A stretch of 64,000 nt of DNA, taken from Craspedostauros australis (taxonomy: Eukaryota; Bacillariophyta; Bacillariophyceae; Mastogloiales; Achnanthaceae). The notes under the pieces were generated by a model. It searched no databases and had not been told where the DNA came from. It saw only the letters and a list, made by a program, of their open reading frames with translations. A program made the position numbers and the translations under genes. Below are positions 645 through 26,587 of this stretch, piece by piece (position 1 is the stretch's first letter; each line of letters begins with the position of its first letter). The stretch lies in contig JAMXDE010000022.1 in assembly GCA_026770025.1 (NCBI GenBank), positions 434,001-498,000 on the forward strand, in the 5' to 3' direction.

Positions 645-3600
645 CTAGCCCGACAAGTCCGTCAGTACGGACACGTCGTCATCGTCGTCGATGTCGTTGC
701 TTTGATGCTCGTCCTCTTTCACTCCATCGCTCTGTTCGCTGGAGATATGCGACAAGCCAGCGCCTTCTTGTTCATGCATGCTGCCTTTCGTGGAAGTCTG
801 CGTCCACTTCGTGTCGTGATCGTTCATGCTGCGACCAGCGATGGATTTCGGTGCAACGCTTCCCGTCATCAATGTTCCAGCGGTTACCTTGTTGTGATGA
901 TGACCTGCGAGATCCACCACTCTACCATCGTTGGCATCCTGTAACTGCATGCTGCCATCCAGCGTCAGATACTGCGATCGGCGCTTCTGGATGTCCTTCA
1001 CCTTGATGGAGCAGCCCCATTCGTTGTAGTATGCGACGGCACGCGTCATGTACTTGCAGATCGATTCCTGCAGCAATCTCTGCACATCGCGGTCGGTAGT
1101 GCTCAAATGTTTGCTGCGCGGAAGCTTCTTCATCGTTCGGATCAGGTCTTCGGCTGCGTTTTCGCATGCGATGGCGCAGTAATGCACCAGGGAGACCTTC
1201 TCTGCCACCATGATGGCCGTGTCGTACGCCTTCTCGGACCGGTAGATGTCGGCGAGGCTTGGCTTGACGCCGTTCACCGCGAGCCGCTTGGCCTTGAGCA
1301 GCTGCAAGATGCTGGTCGCGTTGCTTCCTTTCTTCGTTACGAACGTCCTGACAAGTCCAATCTGACGCTTCAGCTCTTTCTTGTGCTTTGCTTTGCCCGT
1401 GGATTTGTACAAGGCGAACGCTGAAAGTCCTTGCACGAGCATGGTCGTGGATTCGGAACCGAAGGTTGTAGCATTGCCCGGGAGCTGACGATACAGCGCG
1501 ATCATGCGTTGTGCAAGCTCGTACTTCCGGAACAGAAACGCCAGCAAAGGCAGGCCCGAGTAGGTGGTGATCAGTCGGTGCACTTCGTTACGAATCACAG
1601 CCTTGTCGTTGGCGTCGCGCTCCAGCTTGCGCTCTATGTCGCTCCAGTCGATTGGATCGAGACCAGCGAGGTACCTTGTCATCATCAGCACGGCGATCGT
1701 CGTTTCATTGTTGAATGTCACGTTGTAGACCTTGTGCTGCTGAATTGTGTGCTCAAGAGCCGCAACCAGCTGCTGGAGCTTGTAGCCAATGTAGAATGCC
1801 AAGACGTTGCGGAACCGGAGATTGGTCAACCCCAGCTCAAAGTCGCCAGACTCCATCCCGAAAGCGTAGCCTTTGTCCAAGGTCTTGATGCAGAAGGGAA
1901 ATGGCTCGCTGGATGGGAAGATCCAGCCCGCCGTGATGGAGTACACCGTGCTGGATTGCTGCCGAACTCTCGTCAGCAGCTTATGTGCGATACCCGCGCA
2001 CCGCAACACCAGCGCGTGATCGTCACCGGAGATATAGAAGATGCCGCCCAGCACTGCGAAAGCCGAGGCGGATTTCTTCCCGATTCCGTATTTGATTGTC
2101 ATGCGGACCTGCCTCAGCGCATGGACAAGCCACTGCAAGAACTTGCCAGAGAAGAACGATCGGAAGTCGGTTTCGCACACAAACTGCATGGCCATGACCG
2201 TGCGGAAATCCTTCTGGAAAGGGAGGTTCAGGATGTCTTCGTCCGTGTTGTTCTTCAGAAATGACTTGATCTTCATCAAATCCTTCATCGCGTGCATGAG
2301 ATAGAAGCGCTTCGGCGATTCACCGAGCCGCCTTGCGACGGATAGGCTCATGGAGAGAGACTCTTCCACCTTGCCTTCTCGTCCCAACGCGATTGCCATC
2401 GTGAGGTACGTCGGGAGCTTGTCGTCGAGCGTCCGCGCCCTTTGGAGAATTTCGTTTCCGATTGAGTGACCGACCTCGTAATTGCCCATTGACAGCTCCA
2501 CCTCAGACCGGCACTGGAATAACGTGAGGCAGGTTCCGTAGTGTTCCTGCCATGGACTGCGTATGCGTGGTAGCACATTGGCGGCCTTCTGCAGATAGAT
2601 AGCAGCCGACGATAACGCAGCCATTTGGAGTGCCTTCTGTCCAACTTCAAGGTTGAAGCGGAGGAGGAAGAGATGGTCCTTGGTGGGCGCGCTGTTGAGA
2701 TGATCAGCCGCAATGAAAAGCAAGCTGTCGACGTCTCTGATGGTGAGTTCGTGTTGCTGCTGCTGTTGTTGCTGTTGCTTTAGTTGGCGATGTTGGTCCT
2801 GGTCATCGTTTTCTGCTGACGTTTTGGGAGATTGGTCTTGAAGCTCGCTTTGGGCTGGCGGAGTTGTGGACATTCGGTACACCTCGAGCAGACTGCGACC
2901 GATCTGGAGCCGGAGTTTGCTGCGGACCTCACCGAATGGAATCAAGCCATGCGCTGCTTGTTGCACACGATCGTGGGCAAAGTGGTATCTGCTTTCGCCT
3001 ATGGAGTTGGTGACGAGACCCTCCAGAAGAGCCTTCTCCAGCACAGAATAGAGTCGATCAGTCGTCCATGCAGTCGTCGTGTTTGTTGGCGTTGAAGCCT
3101 CGTCAGCTTGCGAATAGATAACGTCGACGCCTCCATGATCATCAATGTATTGCAGCACCGCTTGTAGCACCTCCAAATCGAAGGATGCTCGGATGTAAGC
3201 CGCGATTGACAGCGCATGTTGAAGATCAGGCGGTTGATCCTTGAGCTGCATCTCGATGATGGCCACGATGTTGTCGCCGATGGGAAGACCATCGTTGACA
3301 GATGAGTCCAGATGCCATTCCCATCGATCGGCGGTGCGGTTGTGAATGACGATGTCCCGCCTCTTGAGCTCTTCGATGGCCTGCAGCGTGAAGTAGACGT
3401 TGCCGTGCGTCTTCGCATGGATTTTGGATGCCAGCAACTTGAGGTCGCTGTCGTGATGGGAGCGATGGAGAAGATGCGACAGCCACTGGGTGCAGTCCGG
3501 CAACGACAGATTACCGAGTGTGATCTGCTCAAGGAGTGTGCCGTCTCTGTCGTTGTTGCCGTTCCAGTTATTGTGGGCATCCCTGGCGTTGTCTTCGCAC

Positions 3601-4916
3601 AGCAACCGATCCAAGAACGACGTTTGCAGGGGTGCATACGGTGACAGCTCCATCGCTTGATGATTGTGAGGGTCCGTTTCCTGTCGGATCGCACCCAGCA
3701 ACAGGAAATTGTGAAGATCGGTATCCGTGAGAAGCGATGCCAGAAGCTCCAAGCCAGCGGCGGATGACCACTGCAGATCGTCAAGGAAGAGAAAGACCGG
3801 CCTTTGAGGAGTGGAGATGGCCTTCATGAACTGGATGAAGATGTAGCAGAGCCGGTTCCATGCGGTCTGTGAGTTAGCTGTGGTTGCGTTCTTGCCGGCG
3901 ACCCCGCCGAAGTCCATATCTGACATGGCATGGCTATTTGTGGAGACGGACCCGGCGTCCCTGGCGAGACCTGCAGCAGGGCGGCCGAAGTTGCTGTTGG
4001 ATGAGATTGTCTGCAGGGCACGTGCCGAGCGGGACGAGGCGCCCGTCACGACGCTGGAAGAGGACCCGGGGGAGTCGGAGAACAGAATGGACAGCGACGG
4101 GACGACTGTGATTAAAGCAGCCATGGCGTCATAGCTTTGCTTCATCATGCTGCCGTGCGTTTGGCTCGCGGAGTCATCTTGGGTGGGTTTGGAGGTGAGA
4201 TCGGATTCGCTGTCATCCGCATAGAACACGCTCTGTACTGATTTCTGAATGCGTTGAAGTTCCTCAGGAGGTCCGTGTTGGAGTTGGGTTGCGAAGTCAT
4301 CCAGTGCTTGGATGATGGCGGAAAAGGGATCGTTGTTGCCGGTGTACTCATCGTACTTGCCTCGCAACACGTAGCAACATGAGCACTGTCGGGTTGGTTG
4401 CTGCTGTTGTTGCTGCTGTTGTCGAAGACCTTCCGCTTGCGGATCTGATGATAGCAGTACCGCTCGCTTTGGATGATGTCTTTCCCCGCATGTGCAACAT
4501 GATTGATCCAGGAAATGGTCAATCAGCTGCGACTTTCCGGTTCCACTCGTTCCCCAAACCAACGCGGCCGGAAAGATGGGTTGGCCATCGTTGATGTGCC
4601 GCCAGATGTCACGGAGATGCTGCAGCTCTTTGTCTCGTCCAAAGAAGAAGTCCTTCGTGGGCGCCTTTGAAGATGGCATCGAGAACTCGGAGGATGGGAA
4701 CGCGGACTCGCATGTGTTCGACATGGTTGTGTTTGATGAACGTGATGCAGTGTCATCCAGGCTCGCACTCTGCAACGGCGCCAAGCCGTCCACGCGATCG
4801 AAGTGCACTGTTCGTTGGTCAACAGAGGGTGCTTTGATGTTGTTGCTGGTGGTGGTGGTGCTGGTGGTGCTGGTGCTCGCGTTGCTGATGTGCGGTTTGA
4901 TGGTGACAAACGGCAT
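645..4916 (-). CDS. STAND-like AAA/P-loop ATPase with long helical-repeat C-terminus (copy 1, intact)
   Basis: A 1423-residue protein. A Ser/Thr-rich N-terminus leads into a linker with FFGRDKEL, the usual entry to an Orc1-like/AAA_16 module. Walker A is WGTSGTGKS at about residues 121-129. Walker B is VFLFLDDLQW at about 372-381, followed by a sensor-like LLLGAIRQE. Polyglutamine tracts lie near residues 170 and 700. The rest, about 600 residues, is helical and TPR-like, with an acidic tail. The longer open frame reaches 5228, but I start at the ATG of MPF. Copy 2 has a one-base indel just upstream, so the leader is probably UTR, and the alternative ATG at 5153 is missing there. The layout fits a signal-responsive NTPase switch (inference). 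The ligand is unknown. The gene is convergent with the aspartoacylase. Confidence 0.8.
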   Translation of the reverse strand: MPFVTIKPHISNASTSTTSTTTTSNNIKAPSVDQRTVHFDRVDGLAPLQSASLDDTASRSSNTTMSNTCESAFPSSEFSMPSSKAPTKDFFFGRDKELQHLRDIWRHINDGQPIFPAALVWGTSGTGKSQLIDHFLDQSCCTCGERHHPKRAVLLSSDPQAEGLRQQQQQQQQPTRQCSCCYVLRGKYDEYTGNNDPFSAIIQALDDFATQLQHGPPEELQRIQKSVQSVFYADDSESDLTSKPTQDDSASQTHGSMMKQSYDAMAALITVVPSLSILFSDSPGSSSSVVTGASSRSARALQTISSNSNFGRPAAGLARDAGSVSTNSHAMSDMDFGGVAGKNATTANSQTAWNRLCYIFIQFMKAISTPQRPVFLFLDDLQWSSAAGLELLASLLTDTDLHNFLLLGAIRQETDPHNHQAMELSPYAPLQTSFLDRLLCEDNARDAHNNWNGNNDRDGTLLEQITLGNLSLPDCTQWLSHLLHRSHHDSDLKLLASKIHAKTHGNVYFTLQAIEELKRRDIVIHNRTADRWEWHLDSSVNDGLPIGDNIVAIIEMQLKDQPPDLQHALSIAAYIRASFDLEVLQAVLQYIDDHGGVDVIYSQADEASTPTNTTTAWTTDRLYSVLEKALLEGLVTNSIGESRYHFAHDRVQQAAHGLIPFGEVRSKLRLQIGRSLLEVYRMSTTPPAQSELQDQSPKTSAENDDQDQHRQLKQQQQQQQQHELTIRDVDSLLFIAADHLNSAPTKDHLFLLRFNLEVGQKALQMAALSSAAIYLQKAANVLPRIRSPWQEHYGTCLTLFQCRSEVELSMGNYEVGHSIGNEILQRARTLDDKLPTYLTMAIALGREGKVEESLSMSLSVARRLGESPKRFYLMHAMKDLMKIKSFLKNNTDEDILNLPFQKDFRTVMAMQFVCETDFRSFFSGKFLQWLVHALRQVRMTIKYGIGKKSASAFAVLGGIFYISGDDHALVLRCAGIAHKLLTRVRQQSSTVYSITAGWIFPSSEPFPFCIKTLDKGYAFGMESGDFELGLTNLRFRNVLAFYIGYKLQQLVAALEHTIQQHKVYNVTFNNETTIAVLMMTRYLAGLDPIDWSDIERKLERDANDKAVIRNEVHRLITTYSGLPLLAFLFRKYELAQRMIALYRQLPGNATTFGSESTTMLVQGLSAFALYKSTGKAKHKKELKRQIGLVRTFVTKKGSNATSILQLLKAKRLAVNGVKPSLADIYRSEKAYDTAIMVAEKVSLVHYCAIACENAAEDLIRTMKKLPRSKHLSTTDRDVQRLLQESICKYMTRAVAYYNEWGCSIKVKDIQKRRSQYLTLDGSMQLQDANDGRVVDLAGHHHNKVTAGTLMTGSVAPKSIAGRSMNDHDTKWTQTSTKGSMHEQEGAGLSHISSEQSDGVKEDEHQSNDIDDDDDVSVLTDLSG

Positions 4917-5558
4917 GATTGGTGATGGTGCGATTTGAGATGGAATGGTGTGAGATTGTGTGGCTTGTGATGATGATCCGCGTGTATGCTCACGTTTGCG
5001 GGTATCATGGCAAAGTGGGAAAGCAGGTGCCGGTTGTGGGCTTGTGGTGTGTGACGACGGAGTGGCTACGCATGGGTACGTATGCGTTGGCACGGATAGG
5101 GAGTATACTCCATGTGCGTCCTCGTATCTGTCACAGCCAAAAGAGCTGCTCATTTGTTGTTGCGGTTGGTGGGGGAGATCCAGCTTGGCGTTGGCTTCAA
5201 CAGAGCATAGCAGAGCACCCGCGAGCACCCGACAGGACGGATCAGACAGTATTATCGGTTATCGCTGGGCACGACGTCACTGTGGATGCAAACAAGTTGT
5301 GTATTCGCACCAGCAGCGACTCGGTCCGATGATAGCGCTGCCGGAGGATGGTGTTTGGCGACAGTGGAGGAGCTGATCGAGTCGAGACGCACAGTGGAGA
5401 GGCTTTTTGTGAGGTTTCCACCCTCACTTGTGACCAAGAGCGTCAGCAACTTGTCCGGAGGACAATCGAACAAACTGCCCTTGCTCGGTTAGGTTAAATC
5501 TTGGTTTGGAGCGATCATCACGGGGCGAAAACTCCCCCCCCCAAAGCGGCAAAGAGCA
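4917..5558. other. Upstream region of ATPase copy 1
   Basis: This stretch is shared with about 23139-23816 of unit 2, but with indels that are not multiples of three, which argues against coding. It likely holds the 5' UTR and promoter of the ATPase. I could not place a TATA box. Confidence 0.45.
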
Positions 5559-9343: not shown

Positions 9344-11162
9344 GATGATGATGTGTTTTGTGTCTTTTGCTTTGTGTTGTGTGAAGTTCAATTTTATGAG
9401 CTGGTTGGTTGCGAGATTAAATTGTGAGAGGATGGGGCGAGGTTGGTGCTTTGTTACGTTTCGACGACGTCATGTTGTGTTGCTCCATCTCTGCATCAAT
9501 CCGCTTTGCTTCGTGTTGCATCATGTCTTCGTGGCCTCGATTCATCCACAGTGAGTGTTGGGGAGCAAACATGGGAATGTGTCAGCTGTGCTGGAGCTTG
9601 TCGTGTTGGCTTCTCGCAAGATAGCGTGCATACAGAGTTTGATGTTGTGGGATTATTCCAGTGACTGACAACCTTAAGGCACGGGAATTTCCCGATCGTG
9701 TCAGGAGCGAATCTTCGATCACGGAGGATTGATCACGGAGACATCCACGAATCGAAGATATCACTGCGCGCCACATTTTTCAACAATGCCCATCGTGTGG
9801 GAGCCCAAAACTCGAAAACACAAAAACACGGAAAACGCATCCGAATCAACCGTGGATCCGGATGACAAGTACCAACCCTACCGAATACGATATCGGAGTA
9901 CAATCGCAATGCAAGACCAAGATCAGAATAACACAGGACAGTGCGAGAGATACAGACAGAAGGTCGAGGATGTTTCAGAGCCGAAACAAGGCACATCACG
10001 ACCGAAACAAACAGAATGTCGACGATGCTCATGGCCGATAACACGGCGCATCGCGACCGAATCAAACCGCATGTCGATGATGCTCATGGCGGATAACGCG
10101 GCGCATCACGACGAATGCAAAATGAATGAAGATGAAGATCACGGTCGTTCAGACGAGAGATGCTGCTGACCCTGCAAATTGCAATCAGTCCAGAACAACA
10201 TCTCATCCTCATCTCATAATTCGTGAGTTCAATCAAACTCACCAACCAACAGTCAAACCAACTAATCGACAACTACATTAACAATTACCTCCAAACCAGA
10301 GCCCACGATCTCACCACTGCCTACGCCGGTCTAATCAGTGCTGACATTTCGACACAATATCACAGATGTCTGATCTATTGAAACGTAGCGATGTGTGATG
10401 AGGTATGAAGTTGTTCTAATGATGGATTATGACCAAAGTCTGTGTTTGCTTTGGACGACCTCTTTTGTTGTTTGTTTTCTTTGCTGGTCTATTGGATACG
10501 GTTTCCGACTCGTTTGACCGCACTGCTGCTGCCGTGGCTCCGATAATTCACACAAAGCAAAAGATCCAAAATTCTGTCATGATTTCTGTTTTCTGGATTC
10601 GTTTTTAGTCACGAGACATTGGTGCGATCGAGTCACGGTTATCCTCGCTTCGCCTTTTGTAGTCGATTCAGTCGATCTTCTCCTCTCTTGTGAGAAGTTC
10701 GGAAGGGAACCGACATGATTGGCACAACAGATGACATGGAGCGAACTTCCGTGTTTGGCACACATTTGACACCAACATCTGTCGTGCCTTTCTCCTTCGT
10801 CGTTGATGGGCGACGACCACCATCGCGAGTCTCGTCGCGGAGAAGAGGGTGTTTGCTTCAAGCCGGCTCAACAATCTCTGCTCCAGAGAGAATCCTTCTC
10901 CACTCTTTCGCTGTTTGCATTCTCATGAATGGCACACCTCTTGTGTTCGAAGCGGCGGCACATTCAGACACACTGCCACGTATTATACTCCTCTATTGGG
11001 TCAGACTCTTCATGTGCCTGCTTCCCTCATTCATTCGGTCATCCATCCATCCATTCATCCATTGCAATAGTGCAGCACTGTGTCGGTGAAGCATCCCAAG
11101 TCACTCGATCCGTCATCTCAGCTGCAACCGCAACAGCTTGTACAGACACTGTCCGTCCATCC
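9344..11162. other. Right end of unit 1 and junction with unit 2
   Basis: Homology to unit 2 (25337-25640) continues to about 9650 and then stops, which marks the right end of the duplicated unit. From about 9660 to the aspartoacylase start I see no supported gene. There is a partial tandem duplication at about 10010-10112 (GATGCTCATGGC twice, about 60 bp apart). Confidence 0.45.
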
Positions 11163-12497
11163 ATGCAGCTCGGCTCAAGTCCAGGAATGACATCCCCTCC
11201 TTCATCTCCTTCATCTCCCTCAAGTGCCTCCATTCCAATTCGCAGCAGCGCCCGCCGCAGCACACGTATTCACTCCCACATCCACAACTTCATTTGCATG
11301 CCAATGCTTATGATGACCTTGCTCACAGCAGCAATGATGCCTCGGTGCGCGGCCTCACTTCTTCGCAACGTCGTTGTGGTGGGTGGCACGCACGGCAATG
11401 AGTACACGGGTGTGTGGGTCGTCAAGGCCATGGCCGCCGCGGCTTCCATCAACAGCAACAACCTCAGCCACAGCAAGCATCTCAGCAACCTCGTCAGCCT
11501 CGACCGCGGCAGCCTCAAGGACAACTACCCCTCGCTCAACATCGCCGTGCTGCTGGCAAACCCGGAAGCGCACAAGGCCAACAGACGCTTTGTGGAGACC
11601 GATCTCAATCGCCAGTTTGCGTCGGACGTCTGGAAGGATGCTGCCACAACGGTCGAATCCAAACGCGCCAAACAACTCAGCGACCTGCTGGGCCCCAAGT
11701 TCCTCGCCGACGGCGTCACGCTCAACGAGGATCCCGCCACGGACGTCGTCGTCGATCTGCACACCACGACGACCAACATGGGCGTCACGGTCATCGTGGC
11801 GCAGGGCGACACCGTCATGACGCAGGCGGCGGCGTACGTCATGCAGCATTTCGACGATGTGCGCTGTTTGATGCACACGCATCCCAACCGTTCCGTGCGG
11901 CCCAACCTCTCCTCGACGGGCAGGCACGGTTTCACCATCGAGGTGGGGCCCGTGCCGCAGGGCGTCATACGGCACGATATGGTCGAAAAGACGGAGGGCG
12001 TGCTGTACTGCCTGCTATCCTACCTCGAACAGCGCAACCGCGACGCCGACAGCGTCCTGCAGCAGCTCAAGCGACATTACGGTGGCATCGTCGTGCCGTG
12101 CTTCCGATCGGCGGCGGCGCAAAGAGAAGGCGAGATGAGCGGCAAGATTGTGTGGCCCACGGATGACGACGACAATCCGAACTTTCCCCAATGGATGATT
12201 CACAAGAACATCCAGGACCGCGATTTCGCGCACGTCCACACGGGTGATCCCATCTTCATCGACATGGAGGGCAACGTCATCACGTACAACGGATCGCATG
12301 GATCGCCGGTGCAGCTCATGTTCATCAATGAAGGTGGCTACTATTACAAGAGTTCCGGCACCGGCATTGGCGTCGCTGTGCAGGCCGAGTACGATCTCGT
12401 GACGGGCATGCTGATGGATGCTGCATCGGCGCACGGGGCAACGATGGGAGACTTGGCGACGGCTGGTGCGACGGCGAGATCGATGCGGGAGCTGTAG
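11163..12497 (+). CDS. Aspartoacylase-like zinc amidohydrolase (copy 2, complete)
   Basis: This encodes 444 residues from the chosen ATG. Family landmarks are visible: GGTHGNE supplies two zinc ligands (about His77 and Glu80), ETDLNRQF is the substrate-binding DLNR motif, DLHTTTTNMG supplies the third zinc ligand (about His200), and IEVGPVPQG carries the catalytic glutamate (about Glu260). Such enzymes release carboxylate from N-acyl amino acids, classically acetate from N-acetylaspartate. The substrate cannot be read from sequence. The catalytic domain begins near residue 70. An ATG at 11298 (MPMLMMTLLTAA, possibly a signal sequence) is a strong alternative, and the frame is also open to an ATG at 10929. 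The low-complexity Ser/His leader makes the longer starts doubtful. The 3' end is convergent with the ATPase, as in unit 1. Confidence 0.85.
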   Translation: MQLGSSPGMTSPPSSPSSPSSASIPIRSSARRSTRIHSHIHNFICMPMLMMTLLTAAMMPRCAASLLRNVVVVGGTHGNEYTGVWVVKAMAAAASINSNNLSHSKHLSNLVSLDRGSLKDNYPSLNIAVLLANPEAHKANRRFVETDLNRQFASDVWKDAATTVESKRAKQLSDLLGPKFLADGVTLNEDPATDVVVDLHTTTTNMGVTVIVAQGDTVMTQAAAYVMQHFDDVRCLMHTHPNRSVRPNLSSTGRHGFTIEVGPVPQGVIRHDMVEKTEGVLYCLLSYLEQRNRDADSVLQQLKRHYGGIVVPCFRSAAAQREGEMSGKIVWPTDDDDNPNFPQWMIHKNIQDRDFAHVHTGDPIFIDMEGNVITYNGSHGSPVQLMFINEGGYYYKSSGTGIGVAVQAEYDLVTGMLMDAASAHGATMGDLATAGATARSMREL

Positions 12498-12823
12498 TAT
12501 GATATGGCAATACGTATGCTTGCTCTCTCTCTCTCGAACGAAAGAATCGTGAATCGCCGTGTGCGATGTTACATTCATTAATGCGATTATAAGAGAATAT
12601 TGCACACTTAATCACAAAAGTCCAGAAGACTGTCCGTGGTACTCTGTCTTCGTTTACTTGCACACTTGCGGCAGCGGAGGCATTGACCATTCATCTTTCC
12701 GTGCCCCGTGAGGGTACCAACGCCACTTTGCATCATCATCATTATCTCCGAATGCAATACATATTCCATTCTATGATTGCGCTCTCTATTGGTTTGTCGG
12801 CATGCAATTGCAACCCTCTCTCT
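12498..12823. other. Convergent 3' intergenic space, copy 2
   Basis: Homologous to 295-644 with a much shorter TC run. No gene seen. Confidence 0.6.
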
Positions 12824-14290
12824 CTAGCCCGACAAGTCTGTCAGTACGGACACGTCGTCATCGTTGTGGATGGCGTTGCTTTGATGCTCGTCCTCTTTCA
12901 CCCCGTCGCTCTGTTCGCTGGAGATATGCGACAAGCCAGCGCCTTCTTGTTCATGCATGCTGCCTTTCATGGAAGTCTGCGTCCACTTCGTGTCGTGGTC
13001 GTTCGTGCTGTGACCAGCGATGGATTTCGGTGCGGCGCTTCCCGTCATCAATGTTCCAGCGGTTACCTTGTTGTGATGATGGCCCGTGAGATCCACCACT
13101 CTATTATCGTTGGCATCCTGTAACTGCATGCTGCCATCCAACGTCAGATACTCCGATCGGCGCTCCTGGATGTCCTTCACCTTGATGGAGCAGCCCCATT
13201 CGTTGTAGTATGCGACGGCACGCGTCATGTACTTGCAGATCGATTCCTGCAGCAATCTCTTCACACTGCGGTCGGTTGCGCTCAAATGTTTGCTGCGCGG
13301 AAGCCTCTTCATCGTTCGGATCAGGTCTTCGGCTGCATTTTCGCATGCGACGGCGCAGTAGTGCACCAGGGAGACCTTCTCTGCCACCATGATGGCTGTG
13401 TCGTACGCCTTCTCGGACCGGTAGATGTTGGCGAGGCTTGGCTTGACGCCGTTCACCGCGAGCCGCTTGGCCTTGAGCAGCTGCAAGATGCTGGTCGCGT
13501 TGCTTCCTTTCTTCGTCACGAACGTCCTGACAAGTCCAATCTGACGCTTCAGCTCTTTCTTGTGCTTCGCTTTGCCCGTGGATTTGTACAAGGCGAATGC
13601 TGAAAGTCCTTGCACGAGCATGGTCGTGGATTCGGAACCGAAGGTTGTGGCGTTGCCCGGGAGCTGACGATACAGTGCGATCATGCGTTGTGCAAGCTCG
13701 TACTTCCGGAACAGAAACGCCAGCAAAGGCAGGCCCGAGTAGGTGGTGATCAGTCGGTGCACTTCGTTGCGAATCACAGCCTTGTCGTTGGCGTCGCGCT
13801 CCAGCTTGCGTTCGATGTCGCTCCAGTCGATTGGATCGAGACCAGCGAGGTACCTTGTCATCATCAGCACGGCGATCGTCGTTTCATTGTTGAATGTCAC
13901 GTTGTAGACCTTGTGCTGCTGAATTGTGTGCTCAAGAGCCGCAACCAGCTGCCGGAGCTTGTAGCCAATGTAGAATGCCAAGACGTTGCGGAACCGGAGA
14001 TTGGTCAACCCCAGCTCAAAGTCGCCAGACTCCATCCCGAAAGCGTAGCCTTTGTCCAAGGTCTTGATGCACATGGGAAATGACTCGCTGAATGGAAAGA
14101 TCCAGCCCGCCGTGATGGAGTACACCGTACTGGATTGCTGCTGAACTCTCATCAGCAGCTTCTGTGCGATACCTGCGCACCGCAGCACCAGCGCGCGATC
14201 GTCACCGGAGATATCGAAGATGACGCCCAGCACTGCGAAAGCCGAGGCGGATTTCTTCCCGATTCCGTATTGGATCGTCATGCGGATCTG
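12824..14290 (-). pseudogene. STAND-like ATPase copy 2, C-terminal part cut off by transposon
   Basis: This matches the last 489 residues of the intact copy (645-4916), from RMTI to the shared end DVSVLTDLSG, with few substitutions. It contains only helical-repeat sequence. It is separated from its 5' part (20328-23138) by the transposon at 14291-20327. The frame runs on into the transposon to 14386 without a plausible start of its own, so this half is probably not expressed as a working protein. No internal stop is present, so the disruption looks recent. Confidence 0.85.
14288..14290. other. Target-site duplication, left (CTG)
   Basis: CTG flanks the left inverted repeat and is repeated at 20328-20330. 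The uninterrupted copy 1 site reads ACCTGCCTC. A 3-bp duplication is typical of PIF/Harbinger elements. Confidence 0.75.
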
Positions 14291-14313
14291 GGAGTTGTCG
14301 GAAAAGGAGAAAA
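14291..14313 (+). repeat. Left terminal inverted repeat of Harbinger element
   Basis: 23 bp starting GGAGTTGTCGGAAAAGGAG. It pairs with 20305-20327 with one mismatch. A second TGTCGGA lies just inside (about 14326). Confidence 0.9.
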
Positions 14314-14675
14314 GCTTACTTTTTATGTCGGAATTGGCAAGACTAGGTACTTGATTAGACATAAATATGTGATGTGCACCCATCATGGTACTTTGTTTGT
14401 TCCTACTACTATTGAGTACTTAGTTAGTGCTCTCCTTTGTGTTTCTGTTTCTGTTGTTTTCGTTGTTTTTTGGTGTTTGTTTTGGTTTTGTTCGTGCTGT
14501 TGTCGTTATTCTGTGTGATCTACTCTGGGGAGTAGCGCTCTCTGTCTGTGATGTCTGCCTGCTTTGCTGGTTCTCGTGTGATGTTCCTGTTGTTGACGCA
14601 TTCACGCTGATGCGGTGTTGTTGTTGTTGTTGTTGACGCATCCAGGCTGATGCGGTGTACTGCGTTGCGCTGCAC

Positions 14676-16802
14676 TTAGGCGTTCACAGTGTGCCCTGTT
14701 GCATCGGCAGACACAACACTGCCATTCACTCCATCAGGCATTCCTGCTGCAGCTCCGCCTGATACCTCATCCACTTTCAGGCGGAGCACATCATCACGAC
14801 GTGGGGCGTCCTCGCCATTGCGGGGGCGCACTGATCCTGTCAGAGGTGTCATCTCCATCTCGACAGTGGGGATGGAGCTCCCAGCACTGCTGGATTGAGA
14901 AGAGCTCCAGACTGGGTCGGGAACGCCACCACCAGGCAACCCGCTGGAGCTGTGGGCAGCCAGGGATGCGTTGGTGTGAGCTTGACGGAGCTGCGCCTCA
15001 AGCTCAGCCAACCGGGCCTGCGCATGCTGCTCGCGAGCATGAGCTTCGTTGCGCATGGCCTCGAACTGGGCCCGAGCTTCATGCTCAATTCGGGCCTTGG
15101 CCTGAGCATCCAGCTGGGAGCGCTCTTTTGCCGCACGCAAGAGAGCCTCGCATTCGGCCCGTTCCTTGCGAGCTAACTCTTGCGCTCGAGCAACTTGGGC
15201 CGCGGCCTCGCGCTCCATCTGCTGGCGGATCGCAGCAGTCTGCGCAGCAGTCTGGGCAGCATTCTGGGTGGCTGCTGCAGGGCTGGCAAACCTGCCACCA
15301 GGATTTGGAATCGGAGATTCGAACGGAGCAGGATGATGGTTGCCGCTGGCGCCGCCTGGCTGGGCTGGGGAAGGATGGCCAAAGGGGTGGGAGCTGAATC
15401 CTTGCGCGGTCGGGATGGCAGGCGCAGGCATGGTGGGATTGAAGGAGTACACCATCCCATCCAAGCCTCGGACGCCACGACGACCAGCCGTCCCGAACTG
15501 CTGCTGATTGAAGCTCTCTTGGAAAAAGCAGAAAGTCACCAGCGTGGTGGTTCCGAGGTAGTTCTCCACGATCTCGAAGTTGGGCTCCTCGAGGTCCTTG
15601 GTCTTGACGTTGCGGAAGAGACTGTCGATCTTCCTTGGGAGGCTGAACTGGCAGCTGACAACGAGCTCGCCTGCATCATCGGTGACCTTCCGGGCGAGGT
15701 CCTGGAAATAATTCTTAGCTGCCGCAAGGCTTGTAGAAAAACCCTTATCATAACCATAGACTCCGTAGATGCACTCTGCTGTGAAGTACATCTTTGGCAC
15801 TTTGTAGGTCAGCTTCAGTGTCCATCCTTCATCCTCCGTAGACAGCGCCACAGAATCCGGATCCACCTTTGCATCCAGGACCACGAACATGTGAATCCCC
15901 TCCCTGTAGCGCCCTGTTCCGTTTGCAGCTGTCAATGGATCAAAAGCACGTTCAGTGAATGATCCGAGCTTGACCATGTCCAGTGCAGGGCTCATGGCGC
16001 GATCTGCACTGCGGATTCCCATCTTGTTCATGGCATCCACGATGGTCTTGTCGTTGGGTGTGGCGTCGCGCTTGGGGGCAGGAGGAGGTGTTGGTTTGCT
16101 CACGTCTCGGACAGGGGGTCCACGAGGGCCTTGAACTCCACGACGAGGCATAATGAATGGTGGGGTAGCTTGAGAGAGATCGTCGTCAACGAATCCTGGG
16201 TCGAGCTCCAAGCTGTCTGAAGATACAGCAGAACCAAGACGATCAGAATGAACAGAAGGAAGGTAACTTTCGTCGTCGTCCGAAGAAGAACCGCGAGCAA
16301 GATCAGCAGCAGGAGGGTGATTGGCATTGGTGTTGTTGACAGCGCCTTGTGCTGGTCGGTAGTTGAGATTGATCCCGCGTTCTTGACGCAACTCTGCGAG
16401 GCGTTCTGTGGAATCCAGACCGCACCTCTTGCGAAAATCAGATCCAAATCCTGTGCACAGCGAAGCAAATCAGAGCTGTGTGAGAAGAGATTTGGTCCAC
16501 GAGCATGTCAGGACAGTCGGCGATCACAATAATAGTCACAACAGGCAACATCACAAAACGGACGCACCTTTTCCACTCTCAAGGAACTTCAGCAGACGGG
16601 CCCAACAATTGAGAAAATTCTTCTTCGTGTTCTTCTGGCTGTAGAGACTGTGCCACTCAACGTGCGACTCCCAGAAGTTCGAGAAGCCTTCCTTGGTTGG
16701 TTGGAAGCGAGGGGGATTGGAGATGAAACCTTTGATGATGTATGCAGCGTGATCTCCTGCGGGTGACCACCTTTGAGCTCGAGCAACTTGGATTTGTGCC
16801 AT
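14676..16802 (-). CDS. Transposon accessory protein: SANT/Myb-like head, coiled-coil tail
   Basis: Two exons, 16568-16802 and 14676-16450, with a 117-bp intron (GTGCGT donor, GCACAG acceptor, phase 1), give 669 residues. The first 80 residues (RWSPAGDHAAYIIKG, WESHVEW, NCWARLLKFLESG) look like the short tryptophan-rich DNA-binding domains of the Myb/SANT type found in the second gene of Harbinger elements. An acidic linker and a Pro-rich stretch follow. The central block (about 250-400) has alternating hydrophobic strands and could be a beta-sandwich. Then comes a Gly/Pro linker and a strongly charged Ala/Glu/Arg coiled coil (about 485-575). In known Harbinger elements the Myb-like protein brings the transposase to the nucleus and to the element ends. 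Here that role is inferred from position. The domain call on the head is moderate. Confidence 0.7.
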
Positions 16803-17878
16803 CTTGGAGGTAAGCTGAATTGTGGGATTGTGATGGACACCCCTGCTACAGCAGATACTGCGAGTGCAACGCTTCAAACAACTCGACCAATGCTGGGAGA
16901 TGGTATCATCGATCGATCAATCAGCTGTCTATTCAATTCAAGCACGCAGGTAGGAGCAACGCAGCCAGACTACGGCAAGCATCCAGGCTGTCACATCCGT
17001 CATTGCCTGTTTCAATCAGCAGTATTGCACAGATGAAGAGGATCGTGGTGCGTACATGAGGGCATGAGGTGCCATCATCCTGTTTGGTTCGGAATGCAAC
17101 TTCCTCGTGGGTCGAATTTGCTTTTTGTGGGAGCTCAGTTGGATTTGGTGAGCATACTCAGCTTCATGTGCTTTGGACGGCTCGCTTGGAACGATGTCTT
17201 CAAATCTGTATATTGACCCTCCGACAAGAAATTCTTAGGAACCGACGGTATTCGTTTTTGGGGGGACAAGTACCTGGTTTTCGCCGACAAGTCTCATGTG
17301 TGCTTTCCTACGCAACAGTCAGTAGTAGCTCACGTAGAAATCAAAAGATAGAATTTGTGGTTCGCCATTTCTACTCCGACGAGTCAAAAGTTCTAGTCCG
17401 ACGGTTACAAAAACGTTACTTTCCTTGCCTATTTAGTATCTGTCGGATGGAAATCGTGTACTTGTCGGATGCGGATTGCGTACTTGTCGGACGCCTTTTT
17501 GAAATGGTGTGGAGTAGAGTACTCGACTCTACTTGTCATTGGCTTGTGTCGAAGCCAGTCCCACCAAACAGCATGTTGACCCTGTCGCAGGACAGCTCAT
17601 CGCAGAGGTGCGCTTTGGCCGATCGGCCTGTTCTTCGATTTGCGTTGCCACATGCAACGGAAGCAGACACACGAACCAAGGGTGCTTCACAACGACGATC
17701 CAAGCCGAGCACCAACATCTCTTGCTCCTCTCTCCTGTGTTGAGTTCAGACGAAGGAAGAACACCATCCAACCCTTCCAAAGGTGATCTCTTGGTGGCGG
17801 ACATCATCAACTGGGGTACTCCAGTCACCACAGAACCATGCTCTTTGGTCTTCGCATCACCATCATCGCACAGCCAAA
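16803..17878. promoter_or_regulatory. Divergent intergenic region of the transposon with TGTCGGA motif cluster
   Basis: This space lies between the divergent accessory and transposase genes, so it probably holds both promoters. From about 17219 to 17492 the motif TGTCGGA, or its complement TCCGACA/CCGACAAG, recurs at least six times in both directions. The same heptamer is present in both terminal repeats (GTTGTCGGA), which suggests protein-binding sites. Confidence 0.45.
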
Positions 17879-19124
17879 ATGAATCAACGACTACGAAAAC
17901 AACGTGATGCTCTGTGTCCAACGATTCAAATGCAGAGGGGTGCGAATGGTTCCATGCCAGTGGGTGCACCTACTGGTGAGAGCCAGCAACCATGGGCAAA
18001 AGAAGGCAGATGAAGCAGACAGCCCCATCATCGGACACAGAATCTCCAGTTGGCCGATTCTACATGATTTGGAGAGGCAGGGACAGCCACTTCTTCAGCT
18101 CCAACTTCTTCCTTCGATCCAATCCCCCAACTGATGTTGAATGGCGCCTACGCTCATCGGTACTCCATCGGCAGCGTGCAAGACTTTCTTGATCTTGCAC
18201 GCTACATCCTTCTCACCCCTGGCCAGTGCATCACCAATCTACGATGCCGATCAAGTGCATTCGGGGAGGACTTTACCGTTGCATTTGGGATTTCGCCTCA
18301 TCTCTGCTCTGTGCTGTGGGCACTTGCAGCACGTCGTGGGGACCTGAAGCCAAAGCATCTCCTTTGGGCCCTGTACTACATGCGGCACTACCCATCCGTG
18401 CGCATGGCATGCGTCTTCCTTCGGACCACAGACAAGACTCTCAAGCTCCATATCTGGTCAGCAATCAAGGCTGTAGCAGATTTGAAAAATGATGTGGTAA
18501 GTCCAAGGGGAATGCATTTCACTCACAATTGCTTCAGCAACAAACAAGCTCACATCTTTTGCACTGCTTGTCTCTCTTCGACGTCGCCATGAAAAGATCC
18601 TGTGGGAGAACCGATACTCTGGGGATTTGAACAGATCGTGCCTGGTCACGGTTGATGGCACTGATTTCAAGATCAACGAGCCAACCCCATTCGATCGCAA
18701 GTGGTATTCGCACAAGTTCCGATCGGCTGGAATCAGATATGAGATCGCTGTGTCGATCCAAAAGGGAGATATCGTATGGATGAATGGTCCATTTGCTTGT
18801 GGGCGGCACCCAGACCTCAAGATCTTCCGCTCTTTGCTGAAACAGTACTTGGATGATGGTGAGATGGTGGAGGCTGATCGTGGATACCGCGGTGATGAAG
18901 CTGTCCGGACATCCGATGATTTTGTTACAGAAGCAGAGAAGCAAGCAAAAAGCCAAGCTCGTGCTCGCCATGAGACTGTGAATGGCCGCTTCAAGAATTG
19001 GAAGATCCTGGAGCATCGTTTCCGCCATGACCTGATGTTGCACAAGCATGTGATGAAAGCAATTGTCACTATAACCCAGCTTCAAATCGAACATGGCAAC
19101 TCTCTATTCCAAGTACAATACTAG
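17879..19124 (+). CDS. PIF/Harbinger transposase (DDE_Tnp_4 family)
   Basis: Proposed exons are 17879-17975, 18099-18496 and 18597-19124, giving 340 residues. The second intron (100 bp, GTAAGT donor) is required because stops lie between the two open frames. The first intron (GTGAGA donor, TTCTTCAG acceptor) joins frames in phase but is less certain. Motifs: VDGTDFKINEP with the first catalytic Asp (about D185), EADRGYRG with the second (about D259), and ARHETVNGRFKNW with the Glu (about E291). The block before them (LDLARYILLTPGQ, LLWALYYMRHYPSVR) matches the usual N-terminal region of such transposases in stramenopiles. The enzyme would cut and rejoin the element ends in the nucleus. All three catalytic residues are present and the frame has no stops, so it may be active. 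Confidence 0.85.
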
Positions 19125-20304
19125 ATTATACAAGTTTCAACAATACTGAGGGATTCGTGGTCTGGAACGCATCTTGCAACAGCAACCAGGAGAGTGAATC
19201 GCGTCGAATCCGGCAAATAGAAGAGCACTGCACCACCACTCATATACTATAATTGCATTAGATCCATTCTCAACTATTCTATTGACCAGATACACCACAC
19301 CTTGTCCTAAACTGTGAGACGATGCAGCAATTCTGGGATGGATAGGACGTCAACGAGCATGTAAGCGCAGCACGATGAGAAAGTACTGCACTACTCTGCG
19401 TGCGCAAAATTGTGTGAGCTCTTCAGACAGTCAACTCGAGAACAAAGCGCAGCGAAGGAGACCCAATCGAGGAACACCTTTCGCTTGAGTGTGTACAACA
19501 ATGCTTCGTATTCAACGATACGAGACTCAACAACGCGACCATGGAGGTACGATCTCTCTCTCTCTCTCCAGAGGGAGTATGCTGCGGTGTGCGTGCGCGG
19601 TCTGCACATGTTGCAACAAAATGTAGCGTGTTGGCGCGTGATCAGCTCTGATATCATTGCATGGGACAAGGATTCATACTCTATCAACATCGATTGGGCT
19701 GCTACTCCTTGAGTCTGCTGCTATCAATGTTGCACAAAGATGGATGAGAGTGACACCCAGTGCATAGTGATGTGGAGAGTGACGATTGGTGGTTGGTCAT
19801 CAGGCCACCTCGCATTGTGGTGATTTTTTGCCGTGCGATACTGCTGGTGGATTCCTTGCGCTCTACCCTGCAGGCAACTCTCACTGATGGGAATCAAACG
19901 CATCACATCGTCAAGAAGGTAAATGGCGTGGGGTCAGGAACGATACTCGATCGTCCCTGGTGGGCTTTTGATGAGTTCAATATAACAGTAGTACAAGCCA
20001 ACAAACCAGAAGACAAGGACTTGTTCTGCCAACCAAGAAGACGGTGCTTTTTCCGGACCACCGCAGCAAAGTGTGACGAGAATGAGCAACACCAAAACAA
20101 TGCCGCAGCGAGGAAATCCCATCTCCACACCCGCAACAATGCGGGACTCAGAAATGATCGTTTGCTCTCGTGAACCAACTCGGCATTCTTGTAGTAGTCG
20201 TATGAGTCGAACATCTCGAATCGAGTGCGCTCCATCACGTGTGGCGAACTGGCAACTGGCAGTTTCTTGTCATTTGCGAACAGACTCCGACACAAAAAAC
20301 GTGA
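19125..20304. other. Right non-coding arm of the transposon
   Basis: About 1.2 kb between the transposase stop and the right inverted repeat. A short TC run lies at about 19552-19569. A minus-strand frame (19903-20352) crosses the element end and has no support. I see nothing else. Confidence 0.5.
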
Positions 20305-20327
20305 TTTTCTCTTTTTCCGACAACTCC
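20305..20327 (-). repeat. Right terminal inverted repeat of Harbinger element
   Basis: Reads CCGACAACTCC at its outer end. It is the reverse complement of 14291-14313 with one mismatch. Another TCCGACA lies about 15 bp inside. Confidence 0.9.
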
Positions 20328-20330
20328 CTG
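20328..20330. other. Target-site duplication, right (CTG)
   Basis: Second copy of the CTG at 14288-14290. It directly precedes CCTCAGCG of the ATPase reading frame. Confidence 0.75.
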
Positions 20331-23138
20331 CCTCAGCGCGTGGACGAGCCACTGCAAGAACTTGCCAGAGAAGAAGGATCGGAAGTCGGTTTCGTACACG
20401 AACTGCATGGCCATGACCGTGCGGAAATCCTTCTGGAAAGGGAGATTCAGGATGTCTTCGTCTGTGTTGTTCTTCAGAAATGACTTGATCTTCATTAAAT
20501 CCTTCATCGTGTGCATGAGATAGAAGCGCTTTGGCGATTCGCCAAGCTGCCTTGCGACGGATAGGCTCATGGAGAGAGACTCTTCCACCTTGTCTTCTCG
20601 TCCCAACGCGATCGCCATCGTGAGGTACGTCGGGAGCTTGTCGTCGAGCGTTCGCGCCCTTTGGAGAATTTCGTTTCCGATTGAGTGACCGACCTCATAA
20701 TTGCCCATTGACAGTTCCACCTCAGACCGGCACTGGAATAACGTGAGGCAGGTTCCGTAGTGTTCCTGCCATGGACTGCGTATGCGTGGTAGCACATTGG
20801 CGGCCTTCTGCAGATAGATAGCAGCCGACGATAACGCAGCCATTTGGAGCGCCTTCTGTCCAACTTCAAGGTTGAAGCGGAGGAGGAAGAGATGGTCCTT
20901 GGTGGGCACGCTGTTGAGATGCTCAGCCGCAATGAAAAGCAAGCTGTCGACGTCTCTGATGGTGAGTTCGTGTTGCTGCTGTTGCTGCTGTTGCTTTTGT
21001 TGGCGATGTTGGTCCTGGTCATCACTCTCTGCTGACGTTTTGGAAGATTGGTCTTGAAGCTCGCTTTGAACCGGTGGAGATGTGGTCATTCGGTACACCT
21101 CGAGCAGACTGCGACCGATCTGGAGCCGGAGCTTGCTGCGGACCTCACCGAATGGAATCAAGCCATGCGCTGCTTGTTGCACGCGGTCGTGGGCAAAGTG
21201 GTATCTGCTTTCGCCGATGGAGTTGGTGACGAGACCCTCCAGAAGAGCCTTCTCCAGCACAGAATAGAGTCGATCAGTTGTCCATGCAATCGTCATGTTT
21301 GCTGGCGTCGAAGCCTCGTCAGGTTGCGAATAGATGACGTCGACGCCTCCATGATCATCAATGTACTGCAGCACCGCTTGTAGCACCTCCAAATCGAAGG
21401 ATGCTCGGATGTAAGCCGCGATTGACAGCGCATGTTGAAGATCAGGCGGTTGATCCTTGAGCTGCATCTCGATGATGGCCACGATGTTGTCGCCGATGGG
21501 AAGACCATCGTTGACAGATGAGTCCAGATCCCATTCCCATCGATCGGCGGTGCGGTTGTGAATGACGATGTCCCGTCTCTTGAGCTCTTCGATGGCCTGC
21601 AGCATGAAGTAGACGTTGCCGTGCGTCTTCGCATGGATTTTGGATGCCAGCAACTTGAGGTCGCTGTCGTGATGGGAGCGATGAAGAAGATGCGACAGCC
21701 ACTGGGCGCAGTCCGGCAACGACAGATTACCGAGTGTGATCTGCTCAAGGAGTTTGTCGTCTCTGTCGTTGTTGCCGTTCCAGTTATTGTGGGCATCCCT
21801 GGCGTTGTCTTCGCACAGCAACCGATCCAGGAATGACCTTTGCAGGGGTGCATTCGGTGACAGTTCCATCGCTTGATGATTGTGAGGATCCCTTTCCTGT
21901 CGGATCGCACCCAACAACAGGAAATTGTGAAGATCGGTATCCGTGAGAAGCGATGCCAGAAGCTCCAAGCCAGCGGCGGATGACCACTGCAGATCGTCAA
22001 GGAAGAGGAAGACCGGCCTTTGAGGAGTGGAGATGGCCTTCATGAACTGGATGAAGATGTAGCACAGCCGGTTCCATGCGGTCTGTGAGTTAGCTGTGGT
22101 TGCGTTGTTGCTGGTATCTCCGCCGAAGTCCATATCTGACATGGCATGGCTATTTGTGGAGACGGACCCGGCGTCCCTAGCGAGACCTGCAGCAGCACGG
22201 CCGAAGTTGCTGTTGGATGCGACTTTCTGCAGAGCTCGTGCCGAGCGGGACGAGGCGCCCGTCACGACGCTGGAAGAGGACCCGGGGGAGTCGGAGAATA
22301 GAATGGACAGCGACGGGACGACTGTGATTAAAGCAGTCATGGCGTCATAGCTTTGCTTCATCATGCTGCCGTGTGTTTGGCTCGCGGAGTCATCTTGGGT
22401 GGGTTTGGAGGTGAGATCGGATTCGCTGTCATCCGCATAGAACACGCTCTGTACTGATTTCTGAATGCGTTGAAGTTCCTCAGAAGGTCCGTGTTGGAGT
22501 TGGGTTGCGAAGTCATCCAGTGCTTGGATGATGGCGGAAAAGGGATCGTTGTTGCCGGTGTACTCATCGTACTTGCCTCGCAGCACGTAGCAACATGAGC
22601 ACTGTCGGGTTGGTTGGTGCTGCTCCTGCTGCTGCTGCTGCCGCTCCTGTTGTCGAAGACCTTCCGCTTGCGGATCTGATGATGACGGTACCACTCGCTT
22701 TGGACGATGTCTTTCCCCGCATGTGCAACATGATTGATCCAGGAAATGGTCAATCAGCTGCGACTTTCCGGTTCCACTCGTTCCCCAAACCAACGCGACC
22801 GGAAAGATGGGTTGGCCATCGTTGATGTGCCGCCAGATGTCACGGAGATGCTGCAGCTCTTTGTCTCGTCCAAAGAAGAAGTCCTTCATGGGCGCCTTTG
22901 GAGATGGCATCGAGAACTCGGAGGAGGGGAACGCGGACCCGAATGTGTTGGACATGGTTGTGTTTGATGAACGTGATGCGGTGTCATCCAGCCTCGCGCT
23001 CTGCAACGGTGTCAGACCATCCAAGTGCGCTGTTCGTTGGTCACCAGAGGGTGCTTTGATGTCGTTGCTGGTGGTGCTGGTGCTGGTGGTGCTGGTGCTC
23101 GCGTTGCTGATGTGCGGTTTGATGGCGGCAAACGGCAT
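20328..23138 (-). pseudogene. STAND-like ATPase copy 2, N-terminal part with complete ATPase module
   Basis: From ATG 23138 (MPFAAIKPH) this part follows copy 1 through FFGRDKEL, Walker A (WGTSGTGKS), Walker B (VFLFLDDLQW) and part of the helical region, and breaks at LRQ. Translation would continue about 30 codons into the transposon and stop at 20235-20237, giving a truncated protein of about 967 residues with an intact nucleotide-binding core. Whether this is made is unknown. Glutamine-tract lengths differ from copy 1, and small in-frame deletions occur near the N-terminus (for example HLDGLTPL against HFDRVDGLAPL). The remainder of the gene is at 12824-14290. Confidence 0.85.
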
Positions 23139-24524
23139 GATTGGTGATGGAGCGATTTGAGATGGAATGATGTGAGATTGTGTGCCATGTGATGATTCGC
23201 GTGTGTGCTCACGTTTGCGGTGAATCATGATAAATTGGGAAAGCCGGTGTCGGTTGTGGGCTTGTGGTGTGTGACGACGGAGTGGCTACGCATGGGTACG
23301 TATGTGTTGGCACGGATAGAGAGTGTATGCGCGCACTCGTAGTCGTATCTGTCGCAGCCAAAAGAGTTCCTTGTTTGTTGGTGCGGTTGATGGTGGAGAT
23401 CCAGCTTGGCGTTGGCTTCAACAGAGCATAGCAGAGCACTCGGCAGGATGGAACAGACAGTACTATCGGTTATCGGTGGGCGTGACACCACTGTGAATGC
23501 CATCAAGTGGCGTGCGACTATTCGCACCGACGGCGATCCGGTACGATGATAGCGCTGCGGCGGTTCGTGACAACCCTTGCTCGTGAACTTGGTGGATGGT
23601 GTTTGGTGCCAGCGGAGCAATTGTTCGGGTTGAGACGGACAGCAGAGAGGCTCCTTGTGATGGATTTTACCTTTACTTGTGAACGAGGGTGCCAGCAACT
23701 TGTTCGGACGACAATCGAACAAGCTGCCCCTGCGCGGTTCGGTTAAGTCTTGCGTTGGAAACAATCATCATGGGTGTAGACTATTCCTCCTTAAAGGAGG
23801 GAAAGAGCACCGGTTGTCACCGGAATGGGACGAAGAAGACGAGATGGAAGAACCACCGCGATTTGGTCTTCTTTGGTTTTGATTGGCACCCGGAGGATCG
23901 CCCGAAAAGGTAGTTGGTGGAGGAAAGAAACACTCGCGCAAAGTACCAGCAAGAGAGGAAAGACGTGCGAACACAACGTTTCGGTACGAAATTGTGGAAA
24001 TCCTTGTCGCGTGAACACGAATCAGTCCACAAAGCGCAATAATCGGAATATATTAGGTCTGTACAGCCATACGAAATTGGTGATTTTCTGTTTGGAGGAG
24101 GCTGCAGACTACATTCCTGACACGTCTGAAAGTCTGTGTCAGCGTGCATTTGCTGGGATACCTTCTGCCGCCACGCATTCGAGCCCATCTCCAAGTCGGA
24201 GGCCGTCCTCGTCTCATCTTCCATGTGGCCACCGCCACCATTGCACAACAAGAAGTATGGTATAATACGTGTAGTATAGTTCGTACATCCAATGTACTCT
24301 TCTTTAACGAGCTGCTATAGTTCTCTCTGTTGAGACGACTTGAACAGATGCTGTGATGTGGTAAAGGGTAGTGTGGAGTACATACAACAAGTCGAGCTCT
24401 ATTTACATTGCTACTCTGCAACTACCATACATGGTGCAGTGTATCTTGTGCTTGCGGCGTCTTGGTTTGGGGAAAGGGAAAATTGGTTCGCCGAACGAGA
24501 CCGCAAACGATGCTGTGATCGAAT
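23139..24524. other. Upstream region of ATPase copy 2
   Basis: Homologous to 4917-7030 of unit 1 but lacking the 770-bp segment. It includes the counterpart of the small conserved ORF. A one-base length difference near 23224 changes the frame relative to unit 1, consistent with non-coding leader sequence. Confidence 0.5.
23817..24224 (-). other. Possible small ORF conserved between duplicated units (unit 2)
   Basis: Counterpart of 5559-5966. The start MEDETRTASDLEM and about 25 residues are shared in frame. The rest differs through indels. Low support as a real gene. Confidence 0.25.
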
Positions 24525-25313
24525 TCAAAACGGTGTTGCTCTTGTGACAGGAACAGAGACGGTTGATGTCTGCGCAATATCGTGATGACGGTCAGATGCT
24601 CCCGCTGTGCTGGAGTTCGTCGCGGCCGTTTCGGTCTCGACTTGAGTCTGGCGTTGCAGCTGCTGGAATCGGTTCTGGAGTTTGTGGGAAACATTACCGG
24701 CTCCGTAATGCTCCTCCACGGAATGTGCGACGCATGCGGTGCAGTGCTGCTGCAGGTTGAACTCTTCGTCCAAGACTTCGTGCAGCTCAATCAATGCTTC
24801 GATGCATCCATCGAGCATGTTCTCGTCGTTGTTGTTGGCGAGGATCTCACGTTCGAAGATGCGATCGACCATCTGCAGGAGGGTGCTGACTCCCACGCGT
24901 CTGTCGCGCAGGCGGTTGAGAAGAGCGTCATCCGGAGAGCAGCTGTCCGTGTATCGATCGATGCCGAAGAAGTAGGTTTCAATGAGCTCGTCGGTGGAGC
25001 GATCCTGCTGCATCTTCTTCTGCAGGCGCTGGGACTTGAGATCGATGGAGGCCTGTTCTGCTTGCTGTCTCAGCATCTTGGCTTTTTGGAGCTGCTGCTG
25101 TGCGGCATCTTCGATGTTGCTAGTATCGGTGGCAATGGCAGTGGCAGTGACAGTGGCGGTCTGAACGAAGGCCGCGGCGAGCGGTTGCTGTTGTTGCTGC
25201 TGATGGTGTTTGGATGTGATGAATGCGTGGGTTGGCGCGAAAGCTGTGACTGCCGATGAGTGCATCACGGCGACGAACGCACACGCGAGGATTGTGGAGT
25301 TGATTGCGATCAT
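24525..25313 (-). CDS. Plastid-targeted-like precursor of unknown function (copy 2)
   Basis: 262 residues, paralogue of 7031-7834. The signal peptide (LACAFVAVMHSSA) and the following TAFAPTHAF are retained, and the glutamine run is shorter (about 5 against 11). From the AKMLRQQAEQ block to the end the two proteins are nearly identical (for example MQQ against IQQ, FNLQQ against FNMQQ), while their flanks have gained and lost long segments. No known domain is seen. The pattern implies both copies are functional or very recently duplicated. Targeting to a complex plastid is inferred from the presequence. Confidence 0.7.
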   Translation of the reverse strand: MIAINSTILACAFVAVMHSSAVTAFAPTHAFITSKHHQQQQQQPLAAAFVQTATVTATAIATDTSNIEDAAQQQLQKAKMLRQQAEQASIDLKSQRLQKKMQQDRSTDELIETYFFGIDRYTDSCSPDDALLNRLRDRRVGVSTLLQMVDRIFEREILANNNDENMLDGCIEALIELHEVLDEEFNLQQHCTACVAHSVEEHYGAGNVSHKLQNRFQQLQRQTQVETETAATNSSTAGASDRHHDIAQTSTVSVPVTRATPF

Positions 25314-26196: not shown

Positions 26197-26587
26197 GGAA
26201 CACCCAACATTTTGTCCGATTTTCACTTTTCTAGCTCGTGACTTACCTTAACGGGACTTAATACACTGCGTTGAGACAGAAAAGTGAATCAGCCGAAATC
26301 CCAAAAAGCATACCTAGGGTTACGCTATTTTACTTCAATTGTGGTTCGTTCACGCCCATCAAGAGAGACCGGACAAAACCGGAGAAACTAGGTCAGACCG
26401 GACAAAATGACCGGACAAAACGGACAGACCGGACAAAACGACCGGACAGACCGGACAGACCGGACAGACCGGACAAAACGACCGGACAAACCGGACAGAC
26501 CGGACAAAACGACCGGACAAACCGGACAAAATGACCGGACAGACCGGACAAAACGGCCGGACAGAATGTATAGACCGGACAAAATTA
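26197..26587 (+). repeat. Left long terminal inverted repeat with CCGGACA array
   Basis: The outer about 100 bp pairs with 29660-29762. From about 26368 to 26587 the sequence is mostly CCGGACAAAA and CCGGACAGA units in one direction, with varying order. Confidence 0.85.

Follow-up and report, generated by a model that had tools for sequence, protein, structure and literature searches.

A DNA transposon in one of two tandem ATPase genes of the diatom Craspedostauros australis, and its empty site in the other

The window analysed here is a stretch of 64,000 nucleotides from the diatom Craspedostauros australis (contig JAMXDE010000022.1, or C20, of assembly GCA_026770025.1, which totals 74.8 Mb in 90 contigs; C20:434001-498000). 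It holds two tandem copies of an ATPase gene, the second of which is divided by 6,037 bp of additional DNA. What divides this gene, when it arrived and what it did to the gene are the questions raised by this locus. We conclude with great confidence that a segment was duplicated in tandem and that, much later, a DNA transposon of the PHIS (PIF/Harbinger-like) superfamily inserted into ATPase copy 2. The insertion event is ordinary; its interest is that it documents a young transposon lineage in a diatom that targets CNG trinucleotides. No proof of a transposon's boundaries is cleaner than a paralogous empty site, and this one lies within the same 64 kb.

The interrupted gene and its uninterrupted twin

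The original prediction, made from the window alone, described a gene split by a transposon with the empty site preserved in its tandem twin, and this is borne out. In the sense of the gene, copy 2 reads CTG AGG CAG / element / CAG ATC CGC ATG at the break, and copy 1, which was expected to be uninterrupted near 2104-2112, reads CTG AGG CAG GTC CGC ATG at the same place and is thus a paralogous empty site with a single triplet. The insert has exactly the length proposed, and the CTG said to be repeated on both sides is present at both junctions (Table 1). It falls between codons, as predicted, its 3-bp duplication being CTG on the forward strand and CAG, a Gln codon, in gene sense; the residues placed after LRQ, Val-Arg-Met, are those of copy 1 (GTC) and must be replaced by Ile-Arg-Met (ATC) for copy 2. 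When the window is aligned with itself by BLAST, positions 1-2111 match 12204-14290 (94.0%) and 2108-5341 match 20327-23558 (93.8%), and both pieces abut at the insertion point.

Both halves of copy 2 are free of internal stop codons, in agreement with the prediction, and the truncated 5' half does keep the nucleotide-binding core attributed to it, since AAA_16 matches residues 118-438 over profile positions 2-166 of 167 (E 1.9e-22); a weak nSTAND1 match in the same half lies under its cut-off. The reading frame of the 5' half extends across the duplicated CAG into the element, where it takes in 30 codons before a stop at 20235, giving 997 residues in total. Copy 2 is most likely broken, and at most would yield a 997-residue product lacking the C-terminal third. 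An ATG within the element, at 14386, shares the frame of the 3' half and opens a 520-residue open reading frame (ORF), perhaps by chance.

The duplication takes in more than the ATPase gene, extending from about C20:432355 to 443645 (window 9645) and, in the second unit, from window 10580 to 25633. The correspondence is gapped; for example, 1.5 kb of unit 1 (7850-9343) has no counterpart in unit 2. The unit contains an aspartoacylase-like gene, whose twins share 93% protein identity, the AAA ATPase gene and a small ORF. Synonymous divergence (dS) between the ATPase copies is 0.104 in the 5' half (958 codons) and 0.082 in the 3' half (488 codons), and is 0.096 between the small-ORF twins (262 codons). 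The corresponding ratios of nonsynonymous to synonymous divergence (dN/dS) are 0.27, 0.35 and 0.21, which indicates that selection acted on the duplicate pair during most of its history. The possibility that constraint on the severed 3' half of copy 2 had been relaxed was considered and rejected, there being no signal in 0.35 compared with 0.27 (Fisher p 0.43).

Copies, target sites and age of the insertion

Searches of the genome DNA for element copies, the counts from which are lower bounds, recovered at least 26 members of the family to which the inserted element belongs (family A), 95-100% identical over the left 2.6 kb. The inverted ends begin GGAGTTGTCGGAAAA... The window copy differs from four sisters (L001, L002, L004 and L005) by 1, 1, 0 and 1 mismatches respectively in 4,100 columns, and a set of seven copies (L009-L015) is mutually identical over 4,091 columns. 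The remaining family-A copies stand at 26 (L006) to 621 (L024) mismatches from the window copy, L024 having its two ends 13 kb apart. Family B is 72% identical over the left 2.6 kb and 76–77% in the transposase part, and the family D transposase is approximately 56–58% identical. A further family, represented by L082 and L083 (about 54% transposase identity), has ends that could not be fixed and is excluded from the target-site counts. Transposase relatives in the genome are very numerous, with 361 candidates, of which 150 were scored, and several groups of equal score among these DDE transposases look like sets of near-identical copies.

The insertion had been called younger than the duplication and apparently recent, and the copies sustain this: it is very probably far younger, because the sisters are 0–1 differences in 4,100 apart, against a dS of 0.08–0.10 for the duplication. 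As a rough estimate that assumes similar rates, the last transposition among the sisters of the window copy would be some hundreds of times nearer to us than the duplication. With two sets of identical or near-identical copies whose genes are open, the family is a candidate for a natively active diatom transposon.

Both ends could be read at 25 of the 26 family-A loci (the window included; the right end of L023 was not found) and at five family-B loci, and matching 3 bp stand on both sides at all 30. The border of the element was set by L006, a copy flanked by CAC. The duplications are CTG (11), CAG (10), CGG (4), CCG (2), CAC (1), CAA (1) and AAG (1), so that CNG occupies 27 of 30 sites against 5.9% of 41,403 flank trinucleotides (binomial 2.7e-30). 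Within family A, 18 of 25 duplications are CWG, six are CSG (binomial 3e-5 against background) and one is CAC; three of the five in family B are CWG. Two of the three known family-C copies were read at their ends, giving TTG and CTG, each matched at both ends. For family D one end was read at 20 of 27 places with the terminal inverted repeat (TIR), these being exact matches and the seven with one mismatch left out, and 19 of the 20 junctions are CNG (18 CWG) and one is CCT. The junctions of families A to D show the CNG preference to be common to several related families of this genome. A G+C-rich CNG target can fall in coding DNA, as it does here, and this bears on element-caused mutation of diatom genes. 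A preference for genes as such was also considered, and we make no such claim: two of 30 sites (the window and L026) are open for more than 1 kb on the left, where flanks of 158–1,501 bases were used without a control. Separately, L026 (C10:1272520) lies in a frame that stays open for 1,498 nt to one side of it and for 267 or more to the other, perhaps a second interrupted gene.

The history that best explains these observations is as follows. The segment with the aspartoacylase-like gene, the ATPase gene and the small ORF was first duplicated in tandem; much later, the transposon entered ATPase copy 2. Its DDE transposase, probably aided by the accessory protein, would have cut a CNG triplet (CAG when read along the gene) with a 3-bp stagger, and repair of the gaps would have doubled that triplet, while copy 1 kept the empty site. 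The sequence itself shows the ends of the element, the doubled triplet, the empty site, the element's open frames and its numerous near-identical copies; the staggered cut, the part played by the accessory protein, the gene models and the loss of function of copy 2 are inferences from it. Certain points weigh against this account. Near-identity dates the last transposition among the sisters, and the window copy, were it their founder, could be somewhat older; base-by-base identity covers the left 4.1 kb only, the right 2.4 kb being known as rounded percentages; any activity of the element is judged from the identity of its copies; and three of the 30 duplications are not CNG (CAC, CAA and AAG), so that the triplet is strongly preferred but not obligatory.

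Among the alternatives, the one that survives best is that the element is spliced out as an intron and copy 2 still works, which we regard as very improbable. Its attraction lies in the junctions: read along the gene, the element closes at its 3' end with a pyrimidine-rich tract running up to the duplicated CAG (CTTTTCTCCTTTTCCGACAACTCCCAG/ATC), and a GT stands three bases inside the 5' end (CAGGGA/GTTGTC), such that splicing there would add one in-frame Gly codon. Introners that borrow splice sites from target-site duplications are described in PMC9860276. However, the donor appears weak by eye, family D lacks the GT, and 6 kb would be very long beside the introns of 100 and 117 nt predicted in the element's own genes. 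Five further sites have a frame of 590 nt or more that runs open over the empty site; of these, L027 carries CAG when read in that frame's direction, and four (L015, L017, L024 and L026) do not. Nor do intron-sized copies occur, whether as introners or as miniature inverted-repeat transposable elements, among the 63 places that match the 15-nt TIR core exactly, the closest two of which are 6,016 bases apart. Permitting up to two mismatches gives 118 forward and 101 reverse matches, compared with 109 and 96 for a reversed-pattern control, and degenerate short copies are possible.

Slighter still is the chance that the assembly laid two haplotypes, with and without the element, in tandem. A collapse of two haplotypes had been named in the original prediction as one thing that would overturn it, and the assembly shows no further haplotype of this region, as such an error would have it; yet a single contig carries both copies, some 12 kb apart and each with neighbours of its own, their synonymous divergence is 8–10%, and across the assembly the 3' half of copy 2 has just two matches of at least 95%, namely itself and its twin. 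Least probable of all is an element older than the duplication and precisely excised from copy 1, which would also leave a clean CTG there but would require an element at once old and unchanged, 0–1 differences in 4,100 from copies elsewhere when the duplicated segments differ by approximately 6%.

Genes of the element and its relation to known groups

The TIRs are about 42 nt long with GGAG as their first bases, and two divergent genes are predicted between them. DDE_Tnp_4 (PF13359), which we take to be a marker of the PHIS superfamily, matches the exon-2 ORF of the transposase (E 5.6e-12; 46 bits against a cut-off of 24.8), and the motifs VDGTDF, EADRGYRG and RHETVNGRF presumably provide the DDE triad. 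The predicted exon structure is supported by a GTAAGT donor at the matching position in one family-B and one family-C copy, and exon 2 is complete and open in 24 of 26 family-A copies.

The predicted accessory protein comprises a helical N-terminal exon, a conserved central domain and an Ala/Glu-rich C-terminal part. Its first exon is 84% identical to that of family B and 53% to that of family C; the central domain is 83% identical in family B and 34–36% in seven more distant relatives, and is whole and stop-free in 25 of 26 family-A copies. Pfam gave no family for the window protein and no Myb/SANT domain in it at E values up to 10, and no match to the central domain in any of nine members; the only Pfam match for accessory members was Phage_int_SAM_5 (E 0.024), in two of three members, the window protein not among them. 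A sequence search of the PDB returned six matches for the protein (best E 0.32), none of them Myb/SANT by name, and one for the central domain (E 0.97). The model of the helical part (predicted local distance difference test, pLDDT, 72) had two matches at E <= 10 in a fold search and none at E <= 0.001. A small heat-shock core for the central domain, among the best Foldseek matches, was rejected as too weak (E 0.045; model pLDDT 55.6). The GTCGGA motif found between the two genes is the core of the TIR; its six occurrences are candidate binding sites, possibly for self-regulation by the transposase or by the accessory protein, which may bind DNA.

We assign the element to PHIS because of its inverted ends, DDE_Tnp_4-type transposase and divergent accessory gene; like members of that superfamily it has TIRs, and its 3-bp duplications lie within the superfamily's 0–3 bp. 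PHIS unites PIF/Harbinger, ISL2EU, Spy, Pangu and Nuwa, and PMC4482050 distinguishes its groups by their duplications: TWA in Harbinger, AT in ISL2EU, ANT in Pangu, CWG in NuwaI and TNA within CTNAG in NuwaII. NuwaI resembles the present element in having a DDE transposase with a second ORF, a TIR starting GG and CWG at most sites. The present element also takes CCG/CGG (6 of 25 family-A sites), its TIR begins GGAG where that of NuwaI usually begins GGG, and no Myb/SANT domain, expected in the second ORF of NuwaI, was detected in its own by the searches above; that survey found NuwaI in 16 animal genomes only, with a mean length of about 4.5 kb, whereas this element is 6.0 kb and resides in a diatom. 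For these differences, and its divergent genes, we call it NuwaI-like and stop short of placing it in NuwaI. A diatom now has a target preference close to one which PMC4482050 reported from animals only.

Other groups are further removed. The PIF/Harbinger group proper shares the DDE_Tnp_4 transposase, two-gene layout and TIRs of a few tens of bp, but duplicates TWA, found at none of our 30 sites, which have CNG instead. Pangu, which includes one heterokont, likewise has a DDE transposase and second ORF (without known motif in the Results of PMC4482050, Myb/SANT in its Discussion), but duplicates ANT (0 of 30). ISL2EU duplicates AT (0 of 30) and has a YqaJ partner, of which there is none among the Pfam matches here. 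Among stramenopiles, the brown alga Ectocarpus has Harbinger and Pangu elements, described in PMC12477816, that are two-gene, autonomous and of the same superfamily, but their duplications are ANT or TNA and their genes stand tail-to-tail, whereas ours point apart. No published CNG-targeting PHIS group was found in the literature searched, outside which lie Repbase reports and most subscription journals. A bolder reading, less likely than not, is that diatoms carry a separate PHIS group with CNG rather than CWG targets and a partner that is not Myb/SANT, whose N-terminal exon is helical and whose conserved central domain is new; this group would have expanded, would still be moving and would have broken one ATPase paralogue here.

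Coordinates and neighbouring observations

Table 1. Features of the locus in window coordinates.
Feature	Position	Strand	Remarks
Whole element, 6,037 bp	14291..20327	+	Junctions, genome copies, target-site reads
Target-site duplication CTG, left	14288..14290	+	
Target-site duplication CTG, right	20328..20330	+	
Left TIR	14291..14332	+	84% complementary to right over 43 nt, one flanking base included
Right TIR	20286..20327	-	
Transposase gene	18134..19124	+	Predicted exons 18134-18496, 18597-19124; 296 residues; DDE_Tnp_4
Accessory gene	14676..16802	-	Predicted exons 16802-16568, 16450-14676; 669 residues
Six GTCGGA motifs	17220..17491	.	Between the two divergent genes
ATPase copy 1	645..5228	-	Uninterrupted 1,527-residue ORF; AAA_16 E 5.4e-22; empty site CTG 2109-2111
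ATPase copy 2, 5' half	20331..23228	-	Carries AAA_16 core
ATPase copy 2, 3' half	12824..14290	-	488 codons compared, without internal stop
Aspartoacylase-like gene (AstE_AspA)	10929..12497	+	In duplicated unit; profile match and comparison with twin
262-residue ORF	24525..25313	-	In duplicated unit; twin 7031-7834

In the whole genome, the silicic acid transporter profile PF03842 gives strikingly many matches, 88 in all, of which 32 cover at least 480 of 513 positions and 28 of these are stop-free; they occur as clustered groups (e.g., C2:977655-1028778) and partial pieces, some with stops. In a control search of 14 genomes, one gave a match and none was above the cut-off, and the abundance of this family by itself points to a diatom host. 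Within the window, imperfect inverted repeats with an internally repeated structure lie at 26197-26584 and 29431-29762, approximately 3 kb apart.

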